A DNA stretch of 64,000 nt from contig NW_008705562.1 in assembly GCF_000186865.1 (NCBI RefSeq), positions 1,024,451 through 1,088,450 on the forward strand. The letters run 5' to 3'. Positions 13,697 to 53,857 of the stretch are shown here, one piece after another. The DNA comes from Aureococcus anophagefferens (taxonomy: Eukaryota; Sar; Pelagophyceae; Pelagomonadales; Pelagomonadaceae). The position numbers and the translations under genes are program-made. The notes under the pieces were generated by a model, which worked only from the letters and a program-made list of their open reading frames with translations, made no database searches and was not told where the DNA came from. The first letter of the stretch is position 1. Every line of letters starts with the position of its first letter.

Positions 13697-16600
13697 ATGG
13701 CCAAGGGCGGCAAGGGCGCCTTCAGCGTCTACGAACACGCGGAGCCGCCGGTGAAGGCCCTGCGGTCGCGGCGGCGCGCCGGCCCCAAGAGCCGCGGCCA
13801 CGGCGGCCGGCGGCCCGTGGCGCCGCCCGACGAACACGCGGACCAGGCGGCGCGCGCCGCCGAGGCCGCGGCGTCGCGGCGGCGCCTCTACGAGGAGGGC
13901 GGCGGCTCGCGCGCGTCGCTCCGCGTCGGCGGCGGCGACGGGCCCGAGGTGCTCCCGGAGCAGCTCGTGGAGGTGCCGGCCATGCAGACGGCCATGGTCA
14001 AGCTCAGCGAGGCCGCGGCGCGCAAGGGCGCGACGGCCATGGACGGCGACGCGCTCCTCGACCCGTCGACGTTCGCGGGGCGGTTGCGGAAGGAGTTCAA
14101 GATCCGGTTGAGCCCCGAGGAGCTCGGCGCGGTGCTCTACCTCTTCGACGCCGCCGACGCCGACGGCGCCGTGAGCTGGCTCCAGTTCATGAAGGTCTTC
14201 GCGCACCTCGGGCGCCGCGAGCGCGAGCGCGCGTTCGAGGCGCGCCGCGACGACGAGGACCGGCGGCGGCGCCGCGCGGAGGACCGGCGCCACGACGAGG
14301 AGGCGCGCTTCGCGCCGCCGACGTCGGACATCGACGCCAACTACGACGACGGCGACCGGCGGCGCGCCATGGACCTGCTCCAGCGCGCCGCGGCGTCGCT
14401 CGCGCAGCACCGCGACGCGAGCTCGACGACGACGTTGCTGAACGGGCTCCGGACGCAGGGCCGCATGAACCACAGCGAGGTCGACCGCTTCCTCAAGCGG
14501 GGCCTGAACGTGAAGCTGTCGCCCCGCGAGCTCGGCGCCATCTACGAGCACCTCGCGGAGCCCACGGGCGGCGGCTTCGTCGTCAGCACGGAGTTCGTCG
14601 CGGAGCTCCTCCGCTTCGGCCGCATCGGCGAGTCGGAGCGGAAGCGCGAGGCGCGGAGCCGCAACCGCCAGCGGTCGCTGAAGAAGGAGCTCAAGGCGAA
14701 GCGCGAGGCCGAGCGCAACCGGGCCAAGGCCGCGGTGAAGTTCGTGCTGCCGAAGATCCCCGCGCGGCCGCCCGCGCCCGCGCCCGAGGCCGACGACGGC
14801 GACGACGCCCCCGACGGCGACGCGCCGGCCGACGAGGCGTCGCGGGCGACGGCGACGACCAAGTCGGCGCCCGCCGCCGCGCCCGCGGGCGGGAGCCGCC
14901 ACAGCGGCCTCGGCTGGAAGCTGCTCTCGCGGCTCCACACGCTCTCCGTGCCGCGCGCGGCGACGGTGCCGAGGCCGCCCAAGCCCGAGGACTTCGACGG
15001 CGTCGCGCCGGGCCCACCGTCGCAGCCGAGCCGCCCGCCGAAGAAGGCGCGCAAGGCGCCGGCGCCCCGCGCCAACGGCCAGGTCGAGCGCCTCAAGCAG
15101 TACCGCCAGGAGAAGAAGGACGAGGAGGCGCGGCTGGCCAACGAGCCGCGGAACTACGTGCCCATCGCCGACAAGCTCGCGACGCACGCCGCGGACCGGG
15201 CGCCCGAGGCCGAGGGCATCGAGAACCACGCCGAGGCCGCGACGCCGGAGCTGCTCAAGCACATCGCGGACGAGCTCGAGCGCGGCCTGCAGCGCGTCAC
15301 GCAGGGCAACTGGATGCGCTTCTTCACGATGATGGACCTCAACTCCTCGGGCAGCATGGAGTTCCACGAGTTCGTGTCCATGGCGCGCAACAAGCAGTAC
15401 GCCCACCCGCCGGGCCTGGAAATTTCCAAGCAGTCCGTGAGCGACGACGACCTGCGGCGCCTCTGGACGTCCGCGGACCGCGACCGGTCCGGGTCCGTCA
15501 ACGCGGTCGAGTTCCGGCGCTTCATCGAGCGCGTCCTCGACGACGACCGGCCGAACAGCGCCGCGCCGGCGCCGCCGTCCTCGGCCGAGGGCGACGCGCG
15601 CGACGCGCCGCCGCGGAGGGACGCGGCCGGCGAGAAGGCGCGCGACTACGCGCCCGTCGACGCCGACGAGGCCGAGACGCTGGCCCGCGTCGCGGCGGCC
15701 ATCGACAAGGCCATGCGGAGCATCCCGGACTGCTCCTGGACGAAGATTTTTATTCTGTGCGACCGCGACCGGAGCGGCCGCATCGAGTGGCCCGAGTTTC
15801 GGAACATCGTGCGGTCGAAGCGCAACGTCTCCGGCACGGGCCTCGAGCTCGGCGCGGCGACGATCTCGCTGGAGGAGATGCGGTTGTTGTGGGCGCGCGC
15901 GGACAACGACAAGCTCGGGCTCATCAACGCGGACGAGTTCGCGCTCTTCCTCCGCATGGCCGTCGCGAAGACGCTCGCGGACTACCCCGCGGCCAAGGCC
16001 GCCATCGCCTACGAGCAGAACATCATTGTGGGCCGGTCCAAGGAGCAGCAGGACAAGCTCGGCCGGCTCAACTTCCAGCAGGCGTCCTCCGAGCACAGCG
16101 GGTCCAACGCGACGACGCCGCGGTCCAACGCGTCGAGCCCGCGGAACGCGCCGAGCCCGCGCCACGGCGCGCCGGCGCGGCCCGCCGCGCCCCAGCTCCT
16201 GGACCCGCCGCGCGAGTTCTTCGCGAGCCCGCCGTCGCCGGAGAAGGAGGTCCGGGGCTACGTCTCCGGCGCGGCGCGGAAGCCGCCGCCGGCGGCGCTC
16301 GACGCCCCGCGGACGACGAAGCAGGCCGAGCGCATGAAGGCGCTGCGAGCGGAGGAGGCGAACGCGACCGACGGTCCGACGCGCGCGGGCTGGAAGGCGC
16401 CCATCGCCGACAGGCTCGCGGGCAACGACAAGCTCGCGGACGGCGCGCACCACGAGAGCGGCGCGTCGCCGGAGCTCCTGCGGTCCATCGCCGCGCGCCT
16501 CGACGCCAAGCTCCAGAAGCACGCCAAGGGCTCCTGGGCGAAATTGTTCTTCGTCGTCGACAACGACGGCTCGGGCCGCGTCGAGTTCCACGAGTTCCGC

Positions 16601-19600
16601 GACCTCATGCGAAACAAGGCGACGCACACGTCGAACCCGGGCCTGGAGATCGGCAGGAAGGAGGTTTCCGACGAGGAACTGAGCATGCTCTGGACGTCGC
16701 TCGACGGCGACAAGTCGGGCTTCGTGACCGCGCCCGAGTTCAAGAAGTTTATGCTGATGATGAAGGCGCAGTACTCGGGCGAGGAGCAGAAGCAGGAGAT
16801 CGTGAAGACGTCCATGGACGCCCCGCGGACGACGAAGCAGGCAGAGCGCATGAAAGAGCTGCGCGCCAAGGAGGCGGCCGCCGACGACGGCCCCGCGCGC
16901 GCGGGCTGGAAGGCGCCGATCAAGGACAAGATGGCCGGCAACAGCAAGATGGCCGACGGCGAGCACCACGACGAGGAGGCGTCGCCCGAGCTCTTGAAAT
17001 CCATCGCCGCGCGCCTCGATGCCAAATTGCAACGGCACGCCAAGGGCTCCTGGGCGAAGCTCTTCTTCGTCATCGACAACGACGGCTCCGGGCGCGTCGA
17101 GTTCCACGAGTTCCGCGATCTGATGCGAAACAAGGTGACGCACACGTCGAACCCGGGCCTCGAGATCGGCAAGAAGGAGATCTCCGACGAGGAGCTGAAC
17201 ATGCTCTGGACGACCGTCGACGCGGACAAGTCCGGCTTCGTGACCGCGCCCGAGTTCAAGCGATTCATGCTGATGATGAAAGAGCAGCACTCCGGCGTCG
17301 AGGAGAAGCAAGCCATCACGAGAACGTCCATGAATGCGCCGCGGACGACGAAGCAAGCCGAGCGCATGAAGGCGTTGCGAGCGGAGGAAGCGAACGCGAC
17401 CGACGGTCCGACGCGCGCGGGCTGGAAGGCGCCCATCAAGGACAAGATGGCCGGCAACAGCAAGATGGCCGACGGCGAACACCACGACGACGAGGCGTCG
17501 CCCGAGCTCCTGAAGTCCATCGCCGCGCGCCTCGATGCCAAGTTGCAACGGCACGCCAAGGGCTCCTGGGCCAAATTGTTCTTCGTGATAGACAACGACG
17601 GCTCCGGGCGCGTCGAGTTCCACGAGTTCCGCGACCTCATGCGCAACAAGGCGACGCACACGTCGAACCCGGGCCTCGAGATTAGCAAGAGCGAGGTGAG
17701 CGATACGGAGCTCAGCATGCTGTGGACGTCGTTGGACAACGACAAATCGGGCTTCGTGACGGCGCCCGAATTCAAGAAGTTCATGCTGATGATGAAAGAG
17801 CAGCACTCCGGCGTTGAGGAGAAGAAGGCGATCACGCGGACGTCCATGAACGCGCCGCGGACGACGAAGCAGGCCGAACGCATGAAGGAGCTCCGGGCCA
17901 AGGAGGCGAACGCGACGGACGGGCCGACGCGCGCGGGCTGGAAGGCCCCGATTAAAGACAAGATGGACGGCAACAGCAAGATGACCGACGGCGAGCACCA
18001 CGACGACGAGGCGTCGCCGGAGCTCCTGAAGTCCATCGCCGCGCGCCTCGATGCCAAATTGCAACGGCACGCGAAGGGCTCGTGGGCCAAATTGTTCTTC
18101 GTGATCGACAACGACGGCTCCGGGCGCGTCGAGTTCCACGAGTTCCGCGACCTGATGAGAAACAAGGCCACGCACACGTCGAATCCTGGACTGGAAATCA
18201 GCAAGAAGGAGGTCTCCGACGACGAGCTGAGCATGCTCTGGACGTCGCTTGATGGCGACAAGTCGGGCTTCGTGACCGCGCCCGAGTTCAAGGTATTCAT
18301 GGAGACGGTCAAGACGCACCATTCGGGCGAGGAGGAGAAGCAGGTCATCACTCGGACGTCGATGAACGCGCCGCGGACGACGAAGCAGGCCGAGCGTATG
18401 AAAGCTCTGCGAGCGGAGCAGGCAAGCGCGACCGACGGGCCGACGCGCGCGGGCTGGAAGGCGCCCATCAAGGACCGCATGGATGGGAATAGCAAGATGG
18501 CCGATGGCGAGCACCACGACGACGAGGCGTCGCCGGAGCTGCTCAAGTCCATCGCCGCGCGGCTCGACGCGAAGCTCCAGAAGCACGCCAAGGGATCGTG
18601 GGCCAAATTATTCTTCGTCATCGACAACGACGGCTCCGGGCGCGTCGAGTTCCACGAATTTAGAGACCTCATGAGAAACAAGGCGACGGACACGGTGAAC
18701 CCCGGGCTCGAGATCAGCAAGAAGGAGGTCTCCGACGACGAGCTGAGCATGCTTTGGACGTGCCTCGACGGCGACAAGTCGGGCTTCGTGACCGCGCCCG
18801 AGTTCAAGCGATTCATGCAGAAGGTCATGGCGCAGCACGCGCCCGGCGAGGAACCGACGGAGGTCGTGCGAACGTCCATGTCCGCGCCGCGCACGACGAA
18901 GCAGGCCGAGCGCATGAAGGAGCTCCGGGCCAAGGAGGCGGCCGCCGACGGCGGCCCCGCGCGCGCGGGCTGGAAGGCGCCCATCAAAGACAAGCTCGAC
19001 AAGAACTCGAACTTTGACGACGGCGCGCACCACGACGACGAGGCGTCGCCGGAGGTCCTCGCCGCCGTCGCGCGGCGGCTCGAGGCCCGGGTCCGCGACG
19101 TCGCGGCCGGCTCGTGGGCGAAGCTCTTCTTCTTCGTCGACAACGACGGCAGCGGCCGCGTCGAGTTCCGCGAGTTCCGCGACCTGATCCGGAACCGGAC
19201 GACGGACACGGTCTTCCCGGGCCTGGAGATGGGCAGGAAGGAGGTCTCCGACGACGAGCTGAGCATGCTGTGGACGACGCTCGACGGCGACAGGTCGGGC
19301 TTCGTCACCGCGCCCGAGTTCAAGGCGTTCCTCGGCAAGCTCACGGCGGCGTCGGGCGGCGCCGAGGAGCTGAAGCAGGAGATCGTCAAGACGTCCATCG
19401 ACGCGCCGCGGACGACGAAGCAGGCCGAGCGCATGAAGGCGCTCCGCGCGGACGAGGCGGCCGCGGCCCCCGCGCGCGCGGGCTCGAAGGCGCCCATCGC
19501 CGACAGGCTCGCGACGAACTCGAATTTTGACGCGGGGACCCACGCCGACGAGGCCGCGTCGCCGCGGCTGCTGCGGCTCGTGGCGAACATGCTCGAGGCC

Positions 19601-20164
19601 GCGGTCGGGAGGCGGTGCAAGGGCTCCTGGGCGAAGCTCTTCTTCGCGACGGACAAGGACGGCAGCGGCCGCATCGAGTTCGACGAGTTCCGCGCCCTCG
19701 TGAGACGGACGCCCGGCGACGCGCTCCACCCGGGCCTCGGCGTCGGCCGCGACGCGATCTCCGACGGCGAGCTCGGCCAGCTCTGGGCCGCGGTCGACGC
19801 GGACCGGAGCGGCTCCGTGCCCGCGCCCGAGTTCAAGGCGTTTTTGGATTCGTGCCGCACCTACCTCACGCCCGAGGAGGCGAGCGTCAACGCGTCGGAC
19901 TTCCTCCGGCTGAGCAAGCGCGCGGCGCCCGCGCCCGCGCCCGCGGCGCCGCGGCGCCGCGACGACGACGACTACGGCGACGACGACTTCGACCCGGAGG
20001 AGAGCGCGGAGGTCGTCGACGACGACGGCGTTTCCGCGCCGAGCATCCTGTCGTCGCTCATGGCCCTCGACGACAAGCGCCGGTCCGACAAGTTCGCCTA
20101 CGCCCCGGCCGGCGACGCGAAGCCGCCGGACGACTACGGCGACGACGACTTCGAGGACGAGTAA
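13697..20164 (+). CDS. Giant tandem EF-hand protein (2155 residues)
   Basis: ATG 13697 follows GCGACC and opens MAKGGKGAFSVYEHAEPP. Residues 1-500 include degenerate EF-hand pairs (for example LYLFDAADADGAVSWLQF) and a basic, Ala/Pro-rich linker. Two divergent double-EF units follow (DLNSSGSMEFHE with DRDRSGSVNAVE; DRDRSGRIEWPE with DNDKLGLINADE). Seven near-identical 172-residue units then run from 16298, each starting D/N/S-APRTTKQAERMK and carrying loops DNDGSGRVEFHE and DGDKSGFVTAPE, with Asp/Asn/Ser at 1, 3 and 5, Gly at 6 and Glu at 12. That gives about 18 likely Ca2+ sites. The tail is acidic with DDYGDDDF repeats. The architecture suggests a large Ca2+ buffer or a cytoskeletal/flagellar Ca2+-responsive scaffold; the exact role is unknown. 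No membrane segment or signal peptide is visible. Confidence 0.88.
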   Translation: MAKGGKGAFSVYEHAEPPVKALRSRRRAGPKSRGHGGRRPVAPPDEHADQAARAAEAAASRRRLYEEGGGSRASLRVGGGDGPEVLPEQLVEVPAMQTAMVKLSEAAARKGATAMDGDALLDPSTFAGRLRKEFKIRLSPEELGAVLYLFDAADADGAVSWLQFMKVFAHLGRRERERAFEARRDDEDRRRRRAEDRRHDEEARFAPPTSDIDANYDDGDRRRAMDLLQRAAASLAQHRDASSTTTLLNGLRTQGRMNHSEVDRFLKRGLNVKLSPRELGAIYEHLAEPTGGGFVVSTEFVAELLRFGRIGESERKREARSRNRQRSLKKELKAKREAERNRAKAAVKFVLPKIPARPPAPAPEADDGDDAPDGDAPADEASRATATTKSAPAAAPAGGSRHSGLGWKLLSRLHTLSVPRAATVPRPPKPEDFDGVAPGPPSQPSRPPKKARKAPAPRANGQVERLKQYRQEKKDEEARLANEPRNYVPIADKLATHAADRAPEAEGIENHAEAATPELLKHIADELERGLQRVTQGNWMRFFTMMDLNSSGSMEFHEFVSMARNKQYAHPPGLEISKQSVSDDDLRRLWTSADRDRSGSVNAVEFRRFIERVLDDDRPNSAAPAPPSSAEGDARDAPPRRDAAGEKARDYAPVDADEAETLARVAAAIDKAMRSIPDCSWTKIFILCDRDRSGRIEWPEFRNIVRSKRNVSGTGLELGAATISLEEMRLLWARADNDKLGLINADEFALFLRMAVAKTLADYPAAKAAIAYEQNIIVGRSKEQQDKLGRLNFQQASSEHSGSNATTPRSNASSPRNAPSPRHGAPARPAAPQLLDPPREFFASPPSPEKEVRGYVSGAARKPPPAALDAPRTTKQAERMKALRAEEANATDGPTRAGWKAPIADRLAGNDKLADGAHHESGASPELLRSIAARLDAKLQKHAKGSWAKLFFVVDNDGSGRVEFHEFRDLMRNKATHTSNPGLEIGRKEVSDEELSMLWTSLDGDKSGFVTAPEFKKFMLMMKAQYSGEEQKQEIVKTSMDAPRTTKQAERMKELRAKEAAADDGPARAGWKAPIKDKMAGNSKMADGEHHDEEASPELLKSIAARLDAKLQRHAKGSWAKLFFVIDNDGSGRVEFHEFRDLMRNKVTHTSNPGLEIGKKEISDEELNMLWTTVDADKSGFVTAPEFKRFMLMMKEQHSGVEEKQAITRTSMNAPRTTKQAERMKALRAEEANATDGPTRAGWKAPIKDKMAGNSKMADGEHHDDEASPELLKSIAARLDAKLQRHAKGSWAKLFFVIDNDGSGRVEFHEFRDLMRNKATHTSNPGLEISKSEVSDTELSMLWTSLDNDKSGFVTAPEFKKFMLMMKEQHSGVEEKKAITRTSMNAPRTTKQAERMKELRAKEANATDGPTRAGWKAPIKDKMDGNSKMTDGEHHDDEASPELLKSIAARLDAKLQRHAKGSWAKLFFVIDNDGSGRVEFHEFRDLMRNKATHTSNPGLEISKKEVSDDELSMLWTSLDGDKSGFVTAPEFKVFMETVKTHHSGEEEKQVITRTSMNAPRTTKQAERMKALRAEQASATDGPTRAGWKAPIKDRMDGNSKMADGEHHDDEASPELLKSIAARLDAKLQKHAKGSWAKLFFVIDNDGSGRVEFHEFRDLMRNKATDTVNPGLEISKKEVSDDELSMLWTCLDGDKSGFVTAPEFKRFMQKVMAQHAPGEEPTEVVRTSMSAPRTTKQAERMKELRAKEAAADGGPARAGWKAPIKDKLDKNSNFDDGAHHDDEASPEVLAAVARRLEARVRDVAAGSWAKLFFFVDNDGSGRVEFREFRDLIRNRTTDTVFPGLEMGRKEVSDDELSMLWTTLDGDRSGFVTAPEFKAFLGKLTAASGGAEELKQEIVKTSIDAPRTTKQAERMKALRADEAAAAPARAGSKAPIADRLATNSNFDAGTHADEAASPRLLRLVANMLEAAVGRRCKGSWAKLFFATDKDGSGRIEFDEFRALVRRTPGDALHPGLGVGRDAISDGELGQLWAAVDADRSGSVPAPEFKAFLDSCRTYLTPEEASVNASDFLRLSKRAAPAPAPAAPRRRDDDDYGDDDFDPEESAEVVDDDGVSAPSILSSLMALDDKRRSDKFAYAPAGDAKPPDDYGDDDFEDE
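16298..19900 (+). repeat. Seven tandem 516-bp coding repeats
   Basis: Units begin at 16298, 16814, 17330, 17846, 18362, 18878 and 19397. The first five steps are exactly 516 bp and the sixth is 519 bp. Units 2-5 are the most alike and the last two drift, consistent with recent in-frame unequal crossing-over in the middle of the array. Confidence 0.95.
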
Positions 20165-29017: not shown

Positions 29018-31038
29018 TTACGGCCGGGGGTCCGGCGGCGGCGGCGCCGGGAGGAAGTGCCAGACGAGGCTCTTGAGGACGACGAGGGCGTAGAGGGCGG
29101 CGCCGAGGAGGGAGAAGCCGTGGGCGGCGACGTGGCCGTAGCCCGCGGCGACGTGGACGATGGCCGCGGCGACGTTCGCGAGCGCGCCCGCGGCGATGGT
29201 CTTGAACGCGCGGTCGCCGAGCGCGCGCCGCAGGGGCAGCGCGGCGACGGCGGCGGCGTAGGAGCCCACGGCGAGGAGCGCCAGGGTCTCCACGGGCACG
29301 TACTTGCCCACGCGGAGCACGGGCGGGTCCGGGTCCGCGCGGCGGCTCGCGTGGAGCGCCGCCGCCGCCGCCGCCGCGAGGCCCGCGGCGCGGACGCGCG
29401 CGGTGGCCCGCGGGTCGAGGTCGAGGAAGGCGGCGAAGGGGTAGTGCGTCGCCACGAGAAGCAGCGCGGGCCCGCAGCGGTCGAGCGCGGACCGCGGCGG
29501 CGGCCGGGGCCGCCGCGGCGGCGCGGCGGCCGCGCCCGGCGGCCGCGGCCCGCGGCCCCGGTGGAGCCGCGCCAAAGCCGCGCCGTAGGACGCCTCGCGC
29601 AGGTGCGTCGCCACGGACGCGGCGAAGTAGGCCGCGTGGGCCAGGCCGTAGACGGCGAGCGCCGTCACGCAGGGCCCGTCCAACTCGAGCCGCTTCGCCT
29701 CGGACACGAGGAACCAGCCGAAGACGGGGAACGCGCCGAGGCCCACGGCGTGCAGGACCCCGCAGGCGACCTCGAGGCCGACGCAGTTGCCCCGCGCCTC
29801 GACCCTCAGCTTCGGCGCCGCGCCGCGCCGCCGCCACGGCGGCCACGCGTCCGCGCGCGCGCCGAGCCGCTTGAACCGCCGCACGGCCTGGGGCCCCAGG
29901 CCGTTGCCGCCGACGTCGAGCCGCTCGAGCCGCGGCGCGCCGGGCTTGCGCAGCGCGTGGAGCAGTCGCGCCGCGCCCTCGTCGCCGATGCCGCAGCCCG
30001 CGACCCTCAGCGCCGCGAGCGACGGCCGGAACGCCTTCGCGAGCCGGTCCGCGCCCGCGGGGCCCAGGGGCGCGCCGACGACGGCGAGGTAGGACAAACC
30101 TTTGCCGCCGCCCGCCGCGTGGAGCGCGTGGCCCAGCGCGCGCGCGCAGCAGCCCGGCGTGAGCCGCGACGCGTCGACGCCTGGGCAGGAAAAGAGTGCG
30201 AAATTTCCAACTTTGGAGGCTCATATCTCGGTCGCTTTCCACTCGTTTCGGCTAATTTTTGGACGAGCGATCATCTCTCGGAGCGCTCTCGACGCGTGGA
30301 TGCTTTTTCCGGAACGCGCGCGCGCGGAACACTTATATTGAAGAGAGCTTGAATCACTCTTTTCCTGCTCCGGTCGACGCCCGCGAGGTCGAGCGCGCGG
30401 ACGACGGACGACGCGTCGCAGACCGCGTCGACGACGGCTAACAAATCCGCGTCCGCGAAGGGCGCGCCGCCGCTCGACTCGTCGCTGGGCTTGACGCACG
30501 CGGAACCGAAGCGGAGCGCGCCGAGCACCGCGCCGTTCGCCGTCGTCGCGTAGCGCGCGCACGCGCGCGCGTAGGCGTCGAGCGCCGCGGCGGCGTCGTA
30601 GGGCTTCTCCGTGGCGTTGGGCGCCGGCGGCGATGGGGCGGCGTCGGACGGCGGCGCAATCGGCGCCGCGAGCGCCCGCGTCGCCGCGGCCGCGAGCCGC
30701 GCGTCCCCGCGCGGCGCGTCGCGCGGGAAGAACGCGGCGACCACGGACCGCAGGAAGCGGGCGACGCCGGCGGCGTAGGCCTCGCGCCGCGCGTAGAGCT
30801 GCTGCGTCTGCCGGACGAGCTGCGCGAGCCAGTCGCGCGGCTCCGGGGCGCTCGTGCGGTTCCACGGCGCCGGGCGCCGCGCGAGCGGCACGAGCAGCGG
30901 CGCCGACCGGTTGTTGGTTTCTATGAGCGGATGGAGGAACGTCGCGGGCGTCGCGGGCGTCGCGGGCGTCGCGTGCGTCTCCGCGCCGGCGTAAGCCGCC
31001 AAGAGGCCCAGCAACTGTAGCGCGATGGGAGCCCTCAT
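29018..31038 (-). CDS. LRR and multipass membrane protein split by an introner
   Basis: Exon 1 is 31038-30381 and exon 2 is 30180-29018; the intron (30380-30181) is 200 bp, GC-AG, and is an introner plus one copy of its target duplication. Joined, it encodes 606 residues. A signal peptide (MRAPIALQLLGLLAAYAGAE) starts it, then a helical region. An LRR block follows whose repeat is restored exactly across the junction (VVRALDLAG joined to VDASRLTPG), then ALRVAGCGIGDEGAARLLHA and LERLDVGGNGLGPQAV. From about residue 325 there are about seven hydrophobic helices (for example VETLALLAVGSYAAAVAAL) up to the stop. Topology suggests a lumenal or extracellular LRR domain anchored by a helical bundle; function unknown. 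Either half alone would lack a sensible end or start. Confidence 0.82.
30181..30372 (+). mobile_element. Introner element, copy A (192 bp, nonautonomous DNA transposon)
   Basis: It is bounded by 8-bp direct repeats GTCGACGC at 30173-30180 and 30373-30380. The ends are inverted repeats of 18 bp with two mismatches (CTGGGCAGGAAAAGAGTG against CGGAGCAGGAAAAGAGTG). It aligns without gaps to copy B (52580-52771), with 26 differences over 192 bases by hand count. It lies antisense to its host gene relative to copy B yet still ends CTGCCCAG in the host direction, giving the 3' splice site; the target duplication supplies the GC 5' splice site. It has no coding capacity. Confidence 0.9.
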
Positions 31039-34453: not shown

Positions 34454-35341
34454 GGAGAGGAGCGTCTTGGCGATGTCAAAGGCGTCCTACGGCGCGGGGG
34501 CGAGGGTCGCGGCGGGGCCGCGAGGGCGGGGATCGGGGAAGGCGCGCGGGCGGGAGAGGCCGCGGCGGCGCGGCGCGCGCGCGGAGCCGCGCCTCTGGGG
34601 AGGCCGGCGCCGGGCGCGTGGGCCCGCGGGCGGGCCGCGGGTGCGCGCGGGATGCGGCGCCGGAGGGTGTGGCGTCGGGGGATTTCGGCAGCCGGGGGGG
34701 CGACGGCAACGCACCATCGTCGAGAATTGTTTCGCTGCTGCCGTGTCGCGGCGCACGGTGGGGCCGCGGCGGGCTCGCGGCGGCGCGCGGGCGAGAGCCG
34801 GATGCGTCGCCCGCTGGTTGGACGAGCGGGTCGGTTTGTCGCGCGGTCGGGGCGCGGCAATGAACGTTGTCGCTCTCGGCGGAGTTTTGTTGCGAGAGCG
34901 GCAGGCCGACTGATAAACTGCTTCAGGTGGAAGCCCATGATATGGTTTGCATGATTAGTGGTAATAAATCGGCGATTGGGTGGCCGTGGGGAGCTTTGAT
35001 ATTGAAATTAGCTCGATTAACGTTCACGCTGGGGGAATTTCTAAAACAGATCCACGTCGTGGCGCCAACGCGCGAGACATACACAGCAGTTTTGAACGAC
35101 CGGTAACAGCGCAGAAGCTTAACATTTTTTGTGTTGATGGCTCTCTCTCTCTCTCTCCTGTCCGGCTCGCCGACGCCCCGGCCCGCACGTCGAACGCCAG
35201 ACGCCGGCCCGCCAGACCCCGCCTTTCTCCCCTCAAGAACCCCCACGCGCCCGCGACACCATACGCAACGCACACGCCGCGGTCCTCGTCGCGTTAGGCG
35301 AGCCCCGCGCGCGTCGCGCGCGCGGCCGGCGGCCCCGGTCC
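34454..35341. other. Intergenic region with CT microsatellite
   Basis: 888 bp upstream of the HAD-like gene and downstream of the PP2C fusion. It contains an AT-richer island (34915-35130) and a CT run of about 14 bases near 35143-35157. Open frames here are arginine/proline-rich and unconvincing. The AT-rich island is a reasonable place for a promoter or terminator signal. Confidence 0.55.
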
Positions 35342-39478: not shown

Positions 39479-40282
39479 TCACCTGTAGTGGTGCTCCGCG
39501 GCGAGGTTCTTCGCGATGGCGAACTCCCACTTGTCGCCGTTGTTGAGGAGCTTCTCCTTGTCGTAGATGAGCTCCTCGTGGGTCTCGGCCGTGAACTCGT
39601 AGTTGGGGCCCTCGACGATGGCGTCGACGGGGCAGGCCTCCTGGCAGTAGCCGCAGTAGATGCACTTCGTCATGTCGATGTCGTAGCGCGTCGTCTTCCG
39701 CGACCCGTCCGCGCGCGCCTCGGCCTCGATGGTGATGGCCTGGGCCGGGCACACGGCCTCGCAGAGCTTGCAGGCGATGCACCGCTCCTCGCCCGACGGG
39801 TACCGCCGGAGCGCGTGCTCGCCGCGGAACCGCGGGCTCAGCGGGCCCTTCTCGAAGGGGTAGTTGATCGTCACCTTCGGCTTCGAGACGACCTCGCCCG
39901 TGATCGCGATGCCGCGCCAGATGTCCGTGAGGAAGAGCACCTGGGGGGGGTGCGGGGTGACGCGCGGCCGACGTTTCGGTTTCGGGCGCGCGGGAGCGGG
40001 CGGCCGGCGCGCGCGCGGCNNNNNNNNNNNNNNNNNNNNNNNNNNNNNNNNNNNNNNNNNNNNNNNNNNNNNNNNNNNNNNNNNNGCCGGGCGCCGCACC
40101 CCGGCCATGCGGTCCCCGATCTCCTTCCACGACGTCGCCACGCCGCCGTACTCCGTTTCCGTGCTATCGTTCTTCTCCGGGACCTGGGAGAATGCCCGGG
40201 GCGCCGCCCACCGGTTCGCGCCCACCGCGGGCCGCGCGCACGCGGCGCGGGCGCTCAGCGCTGATCTGCGGAGGAGGAGCAT
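39479..40282 (-). CDS. NDUFS8: Mitochondrial complex I 23-kDa iron-sulfur subunit (two exons)
   Basis: Exon 1 is 40282-40100 and exon 2 is 39940-39479; the intron (40099-39941) begins GTGCGG, ends CCCCAG and contains the 66-base gap. Joined length is 214 residues, typical for the family. The first 35 residues ([20 protein letters not shown]) form a mitochondrial presequence. Exon 2 starts inside [10 protein letters not shown]. Two 4Fe-4S ferredoxin motifs are intact: C-x2-C-x2-C-x3-CP in [12 protein letters not shown] and [12 protein letters not shown]; they carry clusters N6a and N6b that pass electrons to ubiquinone in NADH dehydrogenase. The C-terminal AAEHHYR fits the family end. The start at 40282 is chosen for the presequence; the frame is open to 40336. 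Confidence 0.93.
40020..40085. other. Assembly gap
   Basis: 66 undetermined bases inside the intron of the complex I subunit gene, next to a long G run (39943-39950) and CG repeats. The coding sequence is not affected. Confidence 0.99.
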
Positions 40283-49809: not shown

Positions 49810-50665
49810 GTCGAGCGGCCCTGCGGCTGCTCGCACTGCGAGCTCTTCCGCGCGCGCGACGCGGCGGCCGCCGCGGCCCGGCGCGCGGCGCAGCCGCCGA
49901 AGGCGGCGGCGCCCAAGGCGCCGCGGACGATGACGGAGGCCATCTTCGGCGAGTCGGACAGCGAGTCGGACTCGGACTCGGACGGCGAGCGCGAGCCGTC
50001 GGCGCGGTGCCGGCCCTGGCCGCCGAAGTCGCCGGCCGCCGCCGCGCCGGTCGCGGCCGCGCCGGCGCGCCGGCGCCTCGCCGCCGCGCCGAAGAAGGCG
50101 ACGCGGGCGGCCGCCGGCTCCGCGGAGGCGCTCGCGCGGGCGTCCGCGAGCCGCGGCCGCGCATACCGGAGCGAGCGGCGGTCCATGGCGCGGCTCGGGG
50201 GCCTCGGCGGCTCGGAGCACGAGCCGTTCGGAGGCGGCGTCTACGCGGAGACGCGGCGGCTCCGGCTGCGGTTCGCGCGGTCGAAGATCCACGCGTGGGG
50301 CGTCTTCGCGGACGAGCCCGTCGCCGCGGGCACCTTCGTCCTCGAGTACCGCGGCGAGGAGGTCGGCGCCGCCGTCGCGGAGGCGCGCGCGGCGCGCTAC
50401 GAGGCCGAGGGCCGCATCGACTACCTCTTCCGCGTCGACGACGAGACGACGCGTCGGGTCGCTCGCGCGCTTCGTGAACCACTCCTGCGCGCCCAACTGC
50501 GTCACGCAGATCGTCGTCCACGCGAAGCGGAAGAAGATCGCCCTCTACGCGAAGCGCGACATCCTCCCCGGCGAGGAGCTCTGCTACGACTACAAGTTCG
50601 AGCTCGAGGACGACAAGATCCCCTGCCACTGCGGCGCGCCGACCTGCCGCGGGAGCCTGAACTGA
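49522..50665 (+). CDS. SET1/MLL-type histone methyltransferase with a frameshift in the SET domain
   Basis: From ATG 49522: MSDFLSGWNTESGLDLDNIC, then a basic Lys/Ala/Pro-rich tract (APAKKAPRKAPAKGGG), a long proline run, a Cys/His patch (CGCSHCELF), and acidic Ser/Asp repeats. The SET domain starts at about residue 250 (LRFARSKIHAWGVFADEPVA, VLEYRGEEVG, IDYLFRVDDET). At about 50445-50465 the frame must change: the same family pattern continues one frame over with GSLARFVNHSCAPNC, AKRDILPGEELCYDYKFELE and the post-SET CHCGAPTCRGSLN. The stretch that normally holds I-D-A-T is missing, so about 11 bases are absent relative to the family. This could be a real inactivating change or an assembly error in GC-rich DNA. 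SET1-type enzymes methylate histone H3 Lys4. Confidence 0.75.
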
Positions 50666-50762
50666 CGCGGCGGCGGGAGGCGAATCGGGGTTCCTGCGGC
50701 AATATTAGGCCTACAGGCCGTGTGTGCTCTTGGGCATGCGGCTCCTCCGACGCTAAATCACC

Positions 50763-50784
50763 AATAATAATAATAATAATAATA
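50763..50784. repeat. AAT microsatellite
   Basis: About seven AAT units in the spacer between the SET gene and the GH36 gene, unusual in a genome this GC-rich. It lies about 75 bp upstream of the next start codon and could influence its promoter. Confidence 0.9.
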
Positions 50785-50859
50785 CTAATCGGCGACCCGT
50801 TTGAGGTACACGCTGAACTCGATTGAAGCTGTGCCTGTAACAGAGCGTCGAGAGGCACG

Positions 50860-53857
50860 ATGACATCAGGTTTTGCGCACGTGTGGATGGCCTGGCTCTG
50901 CGTCGGCGGTGCCTTGCAGATCCCGTCGCGCCACACGAGCCATCGCGCCCTCTACGCGGCGTCCGTGGCCGTGCCGGCGCCGCGGGCGCCGGCCGGCGGC
51001 GGCGCCGCCGTGCGGGGCGACGGCAGCGTCGTCGTCGGCGGCGCGACGGTGCTCGAGCCGGGCGCGCGGCGCCTGCGGCGCGCCGTGGCCCTCGGCGACG
51101 CCGAGGTCGGGCGCGAGGCCGAGGCGGGCGGCGGCGTCTTCCTGAGCTTCGGCCTCCGGCGGCCGCGCGCGCGCGTCGACGTCGATTTGGGCTACCTGCC
51201 CCAAGGCCGGCTCCTGAGCGTCGCGCGGAACAAGCGCTGGTGGATGGCGCCGGCCTTCGGGGACGTGCCCCTGGAGACGCAGCTCGTCGTCGTCGAGGGC
51301 GCGGACGCGGACGCGGCGGGCCGGCGGACGTACGCCGCGTTCCTCCCGCTCCTCACGGGCGGCGGCCGGCTCCGGGGCACGCTCCGCGGCGCCGTCGAGG
51401 CGCGCGGCGGCGAAAAGCGCACGCGCCTCATCCTGCGCTGCGAGAGCGGCGACGGCGCCGTCGCCGCGGCGGACCTCGACGGCGCCGTCCACGTGTCGGC
51501 GACGCGGTCCGGTGACGCGGGCTGCGTCCGCGGCTGAGCAGGAAACAAAACTATGCAACGCGACTTCAAAATGCATGTATTCGAACGGTTCCGACGTATT
51601 TCTTCACCGTCTCAAGGGAACTCGCCGAGAGAAAACGATCCGTCCAAAAATCGGCCGAAACGACTTCGACGCGACCGAGCGAGAGAGCTGTGAAGTTTTC
51701 GCCGGACAGGGCGTTCCACTGGTTGTTTCCGGCACAGGTCCACGGCCTCGTGGAGCGCGCCGTCGAGGCCGCGGCGGCGCGGACGGGGACCTTCGCGCCG
51801 CGGCGCGCCAAGGCCGTGCCGCGGCGCATGGTCGACGGTTTAGGCTGGTGCACCTGGGACGCGTTCTACAGCTCCGTTTCCGCAAAAAAGGTCGAGGCGG
51901 GCCTCGAGGCGCTCGGCGCCGCGGGCGTCAAGTGCCGGCGCCTCATCATCGACGACGGCTGGATGGCCCTGGACCGCGACACGGACGACGCCCTCAACCT
52001 CAGCGGCGAGATCCTCACGGCCGCGAACTCCGCGGGGAACGCCGCGGAGAAGATGTACGACGGCCCCGCGGCGCGCGCGCAGCGCAAGTTCGCGGAGCTC
52101 GTCGGCGCGGCCTACGCGCGCTACGTCGAGCGCGCGCCGCCGAACTCCGCGGGCGTGCTCTTATGGCGCCTCGCGGCGACGACGGTGCTCCGCGCGCCCC
52201 TCTGCCACTTCTTCGACGAGTCGACGGACTTCACGAAGGCGCTCGCGTGGCCGCCGCGGCCCCACGCGGCCAAGTTCGGCGGCGAGGCGGGCCTCGCGGC
52301 CTTCGTGCGCGACGTCGCCAAGGGGACCCACGGCGTGGACCACGTCGCCTGCTGGCACGCGTCCGCGGGCTACTGGGGCGGCGCGGCGACGCCGGCCGCG
52401 AGCCGCGTCCGCGCGCGCGCGACGCCGCACCTCGCGGCCGTCGAGCCGGCCATCGGCTGGGACCCGGCGACGCTCAAGGGGGCGCTGACGCCGACGACGC
52501 CGAAAGCCATCGCCGAGCTCTACGGCGGGCTCTACGGCGCCCTCGCGCGCTGCGGCGTCGACGGCGTCAAGGCGGACGCCAGGGCAGCAAAAGAAAGCGA
52601 AATTCCCAACTTCAAAGGCTCATATCTCGGCCGTTTTCCACTCGTTTCGGCTGATTTTTGGACGAGCGATCATCTCTCGGAACGGTCTCGAAGCGTGGAT
52701 GCTTCTTCCGGAACGCGCGCGCGCGGAACACTCACGTTGAAGCGACGTTGAATCACCCTTGTGCTGCCCAGGCGGACGCGCAGTCCGGCGTCGGCGCCTT
52801 AGGCGGCGGCCGCGGCGGCGGCCCCGAGGCCGCGCGGCTCTTCGTCGAGGCCATGGAGGGCGCCGGGGCGGCGCACTTCGGCGACGGCGGCGCCGTGGCC
52901 GTGTCGAACTGCATGTGCCACTGCACGGAGCAGCTCTACCGCTACGCGTCGACGGCGCTCGCGCGCGCGTCCGACGACTTCTACCCGCGCGAGGCGCCGT
53001 CCTGGCGCTGGCACCTCACGGCCTGCGCCTACAACTCGCTCCTGTTGTCGCCCATCGTGCTGCCGGACTGGGACATGTTCCAGAGCGACCACCCCGCCGC
53101 GTGGCTCCACGCGGCCGCGCGCGCCAACTCCGGCGGGCCCGTGACCGTGTCCGACAAGCCCGGCGCCCACGACGACGCCGTGCTCCGGGCGTTGGCCCTG
53201 CCCGACGGCGCGACGCTCGTCGCGACGGCGCCCGCGCGCGTCGGCGCGTCGGCGCTCTTCGCGGACGTCGCGCGCGACGGCGCGAGCCACCTCGCGCTCG
53301 CGGCGCCCAACGGCGACGACGGCGCCGTCGTCGGCCTCTACAACGTCCAGGGCTCGGCCTGGTCCTGGGACGAGCGCCGCTTCGTCGCCGGCGACGCGGC
53401 GCCCGTCGACGCGGCGCTCGCGCGCGCCGACGCGGCGCTCGCGTGGCGCGAGCGCGACGACGGCGCGCCCCTCGCGGCCTACGCCTTCCGCGCGAAGACC
53501 CTCGAGATCCTCCGCGGGCCCGGCGCCGCGGCGACGCCCCGGGCCCTCGACCCGGGCGCCTTCGAGCTCTACGCCGTCCGCCGGGTCCTCGCGACGCCGG
53601 CCGGCGTCGAGTTCGCGCCGCTCGGCCTCTCCGCCATGCTCAACGGCGGCGGCGCCGTGAGGGCCGCCGCCGTCGACGGCGAGGCCGCGGACGTCGCGGC
53701 CCTCGGCCCGGGCGCCTTCGCGGCCTACGCGTCCGCGGAGCCGCGGTCCCTCGCCGTCGACGGCGCGGCCGCGGCCTTCGCCTACGACGCCGCGGCGCGC
53801 CTCCTCACCGTCGACCTCGCCCCGGGGGACCACGCGCTCCGCGTCGTCTGGGACTAG
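50860..53857 (+). CDS. Raffinose-synthase/alkaline alpha-galactosidase-like GH36 enzyme, three exons split by introners
   Basis: Exons are 50860-51525, 51738-52571 and 52772-53857; both introns are introners that leave the frame intact. Joined length is 861 residues, in the usual range for plant raffinose synthases. The N-terminus MTSGFAHVWMAWLCVGGAL suggests a signal peptide. Domain marks are LGWCTWDAFYSSVSAKKVEA (about 257), LIIDDGWM (about 292), DGVK/ADAQ holding the expected nucleophile Asp (about 502, exactly at the second junction), ACAYNSLLLSPIVLPDWDMF (about 590-605) and NSGGPVTVSD with the likely acid/base Asp (about 628). C-terminal beta segments follow. Enzymes of this group move or release galactose on raffinose-family sugars; which reaction applies cannot be read. 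Divergence from plant sequences is large. Confidence 0.85.
51534..51737 (-). mobile_element. Introner element, copy C (204 bp, diverged)
   Basis: It is flanked by near-identical 8-bp repeats GTCCGCGG (51526-51533) and GTCCACGG (51738-51745). The ends are inverted repeats (CTGAGCAGGAAACA against CTGTGCCGGAAACA). The internal block TCCAAAAATCGGCCGAAACG is the reverse complement of the matching block of copies A and B, so it is the same family in reverse orientation. The intron it forms (51526-51737, 212 bp) is GT-AG: the 5' site comes from the target duplication, the 3' site CACAG from the element end. Exon join: DAGC to VHGLVERA. Confidence 0.85.
52580..52771 (+). mobile_element. Introner element, copy B (192 bp)
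   Basis: It is flanked by perfect 8-bp repeats GCGGACGC at 52572-52579 and 52772-52779. Terminal inverted repeats are CAGGGCAGCAAAAG and CTGGGCAGCACAAG. It is the same length as copy A with about 86% identity, no gaps. It forms a 200-bp GC-AG intron (52572-52771). The target duplication encodes Ala-Asp, so the element landed on the codon of the presumed catalytic Asp. Confidence 0.92.

Follow-up and report, generated by a model that had tools for sequence, protein, structure and literature searches.

Documented sources of mass intron gain include introners. The hAT-type MITEs have an 8-bp target duplication and ends of the form CAG.... For the introners of Aureococcus anophagefferens that Huff, Zilberman and Roy described in 2016 (Nature), one splice site is said to come from the duplicated target. 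In the portions of the published accounts available here, the introners of A. anophagefferens are reported to have terminal inverted repeats and direct repeats of constant length together with canonical splice motifs (PMC7789003), and a characteristic intron length of about 210 bp (PMC9481584). For other introner families, the available text of PMC9860276 describes a plan in which the element bears the 3' splice site and the target provides the 5' one.

The 64,000-nucleotide stretch of A. anophagefferens DNA analysed here (the window) contains two copies, A and B, of a repeated element, each interrupting a protein-coding gene. It is highly probable that A and B belong to a non-autonomous DNA transposon family of introners with two mirror-image classes, P and M, that a copy of either class forms an intron in a single orientation, and that insertions in which class and gene match are kept by selection.

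Copies A and B in the window

The features of the two copies are listed in Table 1. A preliminary description of this DNA had recognized copy A as a 192-bp introner in a minus-strand gene, and this is borne out; the element is flanked by an 8-bp target duplication. It had also aligned A and B as collinear on the plus strand with 26 differences in 192 positions, a hand count that a recount reproduces exactly. Its assignment of the A host to the minus strand and of the B host to the plus strand agrees with the codon model described below. Taking out the element together with one target duplication leaves an open frame at both sites, and the two predicted introns both end CTGCCCAG in the host direction, as had been noted. 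The reason given for this shared end, that the two ends are inverted repeats, is mistaken: the far end of copy A is CTGCTCCG and that of copy B is CAGGGCAG, and neither offers a second AG acceptor.

Table 1. Coordinates of copies A and B, their target duplications and the predicted introns, numbered from the first base of the window.
Feature	Position	Strand	Remarks
Copy A, class M introner element, 192 bp	30181..30372	-	Acceptor AG at left (plus-strand) end, for a minus-strand reading
Copy A target duplication, 8 bp, left, GTCGACGC	30173..30180	.	In the host, start of the exon after the acceptor
Copy A target duplication, 8 bp, right, GTCGACGC	30373..30380	.	In host direction, GCGTCGAC would give a GC 5' splice site
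Predicted GC-AG intron, 200 bp, LRR-like host gene	30181..30380	-	From sequence; P0091 uninterrupted here
Copy B, class P introner element, 192 bp	52580..52771	+	Acceptor AG at right end
Copy B target duplication, 8 bp, left, GCGGACGC	52572..52579	.	Would give a GC 5' splice site
Copy B target duplication, 8 bp, right, GCGGACGC	52772..52779	.	Recount of sequence
Predicted GC-AG intron, 200 bp, raffinose synthase-like host gene	52572..52771	+	Pfam Raffinose_syn across junction; P0001 uninterrupted

Among the other features of the window, we note seven tandem coding-like repeats of 513-516 bp at positions 16287-19861, which are 62-87% alike to a reference copy. There are also short low-GC islands at 39941-40180, 34851-35170 and 50661-50900, as well as other dips; these three fall to 35-44% GC at their lowest, and the window as a whole has 71%. 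The islands are possibly other introns or members of other introner families. A search of the window against Rfam at gathering scores gave 0 matches.

Copy number and sampling

A 22-mer from the interior of the element occurs in 1261 exact copies in the genome (49 Mb in 86 contigs), with 621 and 640 on the two strands; the reversed control has 0, which rules out chance, and there are 0 matches to the same 22-mer in viral contigs. The copies used for comparison were drawn in several ways. A first set of 91 matches, 79 of which have readable ends, gave 81 rows past the length and duplication filters for tree construction and host-strand analysis, and these include loci fetched by likeness to copy A and by exact left end. 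A sample picked by the interior 22-mer alone consists of the first 40 loci on one contig, with two lying close together skipped, and contributes 39 rows, of which two are second copies. A second set of 100 loci was taken by the exact left end of either class, with one batch favouring unusual end variants, and the 138 rows used for linkage comprise these 100, the 39 and copy B, after filters. Because part of the copies were chosen by exact end patterns, variation at that end is restricted.

Three loci (L042, L057 and L077) were dropped because the script did not resolve their ends or the copy was partial. No class was assigned to a 90-bp fragment in L032 or to the diverged second copy in L010. 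L154, in which a 1-base deletion shifts the AG, was put in class P by eye, and the right end of L095 is degraded. The 8-bp target duplication is exact in 85 of 100 copies, and the arms of the element are largely complementary over positions 3-16. Several loci, L005, L006, L007, L028 and L032 among them, contain at least two family members within about 0.3-1.4 kb, some of these being partial.

AG at one end only in the classified copies

AG is present at exactly one end in 176 of the 177 copies with readable ends (L154 by eye) and at both ends in none, the remaining copy being the 90-bp fragment. The copies fall into class P (CAG...CAG), which in element orientation has the ends CAGGGCAG...CTGCCCAG with minor variants and is read on the element plus strand, and class M (CTG...CTG), which has CTGGGCAG...CTGCCCTG, also with minor variants, and is read on the element minus strand. 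The second letters at the left and right ends are AA in 30, GA in 14, CA in 1, TT in 21, TC in 10, TG in 2 and CC in 1 (the 90-bp fragment) of a group of 79 copies, and AA in 46, TT in 39, TC in 9 and TG in 3 of 98 further copies that also include L154. Genome-wide, the end patterns used count 758 for left-A, 448 for left-T, 651 for right-A and 335 for right-T. When 100 of the left-A, 79 of the right-T, 100 of the left-T and 84 of the right-A matches were joined, there were, among the matches listed, 61 P and 62 M joins, 0 with AG at both ends and 0 with AG at neither; one of the 62 M joins spans 82 bases and not the usual approximately 167. In 132 copies not picked on that base, position 2 of the host-direction 5' end is A in 93, G in 32, C in 7 and T in 0.

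The preliminary description had proposed that the element has a working 3' splice site at each of its ends, so that insertion in either direction can create an intron. Copies do lie on either strand relative to genes and share the end CTGCCCAG on each, which would fit a single element with a usable acceptor at each end, but the absence of AG at both ends, in the 177 copies and in the listed joins alike, and of the T needed for a second acceptor at the host-direction 5' end make such an element very improbable. What stands of the earlier reading is the recognition of an introner, its occurrence in both orientations relative to genes and the open frame left on its removal; two-way use does not. 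Judged by the terminal sequences, the two orientations stem from two end classes and not from one two-way element. According to two further accounts, the target duplication is longer and takes in the terminal CA/AG, or the target dictates the terminal bases; both are ruled out by the composition of the flanks, in which no such bases are seen.

The missing T could alternatively reflect pairing in the RNA, with the arms forming a stem in the intron in which U is not tolerated opposite the acceptor A; double-AG copies would then be forbidden. This would account for the 0 of 132 unselected copies with T at that place and for the lower variation of the arms (3 of 418 and 9 of 418 cells) compared with the interior (185 of 4180). 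However, folding relative to shuffled sequences is no better for copy B (z 0.23) and only modestly better for copy A (z -1.76), A.C mismatches are frequent at position 15 (41 of 179), and the missing T is only weakly surprising given the share of A-to-T among interior changes. We therefore regard a constraint from RNA pairing as improbable.

Host strand and predicted splice sites

The class of a copy is closely tied to the strand of its host gene. A codon model trained on 24 open reading frames of the window, with the element unused, called the host strand from the emptied site, and its calls agree with the end that carries AG in 80 of 81 rows, A and B among them. Oriented by host gene in this way, as the preliminary description had suggested, the genomic copies are found in both orientations, the host lying on the element plus strand for 44 of 45 P copies and on the element minus strand for all 36 M copies. 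Agreement is also found in 38 of the 39 rows picked by the interior 22-mer alone. Reading into the predicted intron meets an in-frame stop in 69 of the 81 rows. At the one exception, L058, a P copy, the surroundings score as coding on the opposite strand, and the duplication begins CG, not GC or GT (GY).

Read in the host direction, the target duplication opens with GY in 160 of 163 copies (82 of 84 in class P and 78 of 79 in class M, all counts being rebuilt from rounded percentages), and no comparable rule is seen at its far end. Because the rule is one-sided and follows the gene, it looks like a filter imposed by splicing and not like a site preference on the part of a symmetric transposase. 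The use of GC and GT at the putative 5' splice site differs between P and M (Fisher p 0.0014, on rows of mixed origin and with counts recovered from rounded percentages), evidence against frequent in-place flipping of inserted copies.

The most probable account is that insertion duplicates 8 bp of target, and that a duplication opening with GC or GT in the direction of the gene would become the 5' splice site. The 3' splice site, in most cases CTGCCCAG, would come from just one end of the element, the right in P and the left in M; the opposite end, in the host direction, has A, G or C at the matching place, with T in none of the copies seen. A copy landing the wrong way would be left without an acceptor, so orientation is probably filtered by selection, which would retain those insertions that happen to match. 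The end classes, the target duplications, the tie to host strand and the open frames after removal can be read directly from the DNA, and from them we infer both splicing of the copies and the selective filter. Since each copy seems to work in one direction, insertion into genes would be filtered: flank composition suggests that about one target in five starts with GY, and with half of the orientations fitting, perhaps one random insertion in ten would yield a clean intron.

Transposition was presumably by a DDE transposase, and the 8-bp duplication and CAG ends of the family resemble those of hAT elements. Searches for a transposase with the Pfam hAT (PF05699, PF14372) and KDZ domains gave no match, and the controls were silent as well.

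Host genes and their protein relatives

The spliced protein predicted for the A host aligns without gaps across the junction with the uninterrupted relative P0091, and the B-host relative P0001 likewise continues uninterrupted across the B junction. The species' own annotated proteins confirm neither junction: P0090 (A. anophagefferens, JL722_10755), which matches the A host, diverges from the spliced reading around the junction, and P0045 (A. anophagefferens) matches the B host in identical stretches and ends before B. The sole Pfam match of the A host is LRR_6, just under the cut-off and not spanning the junction; the B host matches Raffinose_syn across the junction with an E value of 6e-62. 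Ten spliced proteins, picked by eye out of 20, were scanned in total, and in four the match extends across the junction (B, L061 and L072 in class P and L048 in class M, that of L072 being below the cut-off); three match elsewhere or merely touch the junction, and three have no Pfam match. Protein relatives and domains fit the predicted exact removal of the element from the mRNA.

Near window position 51888, the B-host query is matched over 27% of its length, at 100% identity, by P0037 (ENA). The start of P0037 resembles a translation of the 3' end of a P-type introner, followed at once by VEAGLEALG, and the window gene has no introner there. As judged from these sequences, a presence/absence difference between strains at the GTCGAGGC site is likely.

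Relationship of the two classes

Ten of 61 interior haplotypes, holding 78 of 138 copies, are common to both classes, and in interior trees the class label changes 12 times with 81 rows and 25 times with 179 rows, at least six and at least five of these changes, respectively, being forced by well-supported branches. These repeated changes rule out P and M as two clean clades. No duplicated locus carrying both classes was found among 183 rows, in which the closest flanks differ at 11 of 40 bases.

The arms show linkage between some mirror positions. In the 138 rows, r2 is 1.00 for positions 2 and 191, 0.48 for 9 and 184, and 0.43 for 11 and 182; the mirror pairs 15/178 (0.08) and 17/176 (0.07) are not linked. 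Within an arm, r2 is 0.03 for 9 and 11 and 0.07 for 2 and 9, and it reaches 0.64 for the neighbours 15 and 17 and 0.42 for 176 and 178; bases 15 and 17 also go with class (0.37 and 0.52). Compared with L043, L065 and L069, which are M, the P copy L176 has changes at just 2, 191 and a single further base; its differences from L167 are limited to the mirror pairs 2/191 and 9/184. The few P/M pairs that differ at 2, 191 and one further base suggest that a switch of class can involve the two end bases at once. In a set of 42 disjoint close pairs, both arms are altered in two and one arm in four at 9/184, both in none and one in six at 11/182, and both in one and one in six at 2/191. L143 and L176 differ at 178, 182 and 184, an exchange confined to the right arm.

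One explanation, to which we give about an even chance, is that P and M each arose once from a symmetric CAG...CTG ancestor by a single change, at opposite ends in the two classes, and that ectopic gene conversion later shuffled the interiors, with the terminal bases escaping beside their unique flanks. The continued association of bases 15 and 17 with class, the linkage of neighbouring arm sites that conversion tracts would leave, the class difference in GC and GT use at the 5' splice site and the right-arm exchange between L143 and L176 are all consistent with this history, but tracts with independent ends leave unexplained how 9 and 184, or 11 and 182, can be linked when 9 and 11, or 2 and 9, are not.

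A class switch in two steps would require an intermediate that has either two acceptors, a form presumably viable and never seen, or none. A single step from P to M is conceivable if the ends are joined and the 4-bp spacer AGCA between them is inverted to TGCT by template switching, the arms being kept complementary. TGCT is exactly the M form, the right-end letters of M (T, C and G) are the complements of the left-end letters of P (A, G and C), and the near-identity of L176 to M copies would also be accounted for. According to the available text of PMC8604942, template switching at inverted repeats both homogenises the arms and inverts short spacers, spacer inversion being seen only with arms longer than 9 bp and with 2-5 changed bases. 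Against a single step, the assembly has 0 exact matches to a joined-end junction, single-arm exchange is visible in L143, and both arms changed in just 2 of 6, 0 of 6 and 1 of 7 of the close pairs that differ at 9/184, 11/182 and 2/191; the lack of linkage at 15/178 and 17/176, contrary to the rule, lowers its odds further, and we consider it fairly unlikely. The more specific version, in which joined ends such as those of an excision circle allow the spacer change to re-aim splicing in one step with no two-acceptor or acceptorless form, and arm changes are copied (as at 9/184 and 11/182 but not at 15/178 and 17/176), is somewhat more doubtful still. A pair of old lineages, with interiors since mixed by gene conversion, is a likelier explanation than a one-step switch. 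Were the switch real, it would show how a mobile element can redirect its splice signal by simple mutation, and it would point to a joined-end intermediate.

Comparison with described introners

The family has many near-identical copies, which form predicted introns by host strand and open frame in 81 copies, and one splice site (AG) would come from the element and the other (GY in 160 of 163) from the duplicated target, as in introners. The 8-bp target duplication is shared with hAT-type MITEs; these have CAG-type sequence at both ends, whereas one end is CTG-type in each of the 176 classified copies here. The introners of A. anophagefferens described previously are in the same host species and likewise have terminal inverted repeats and direct repeats, with an intron of about 210 bp in the printed accounts available and 200 bp here. 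Those of Symbiodinium microadriaticum are alike in having a target duplication and terminal inverted repeats, but the duplication is 4 bp and not 8 bp, and end classes are not mentioned in the available text (PMC9860276). The family 4 introner of Aureococcus sp., from a related host, has an 8-bp duplication as well; according to the same text it provides the 5' as well as the 3' splice site and lengthens the transcript by 12 bp, whereas the element here is apparently removed without a change in length (PMC9860276).

Among the papers listed by the literature searches, no title or abstract opening mentions mirror-image end classes, and the literature search found no paper on introners working in 'either orientation'. 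The element is therefore of a known kind, an introner, and its mirror-image classes and the partial linkage of mirror pairs would be a new detail of such elements.
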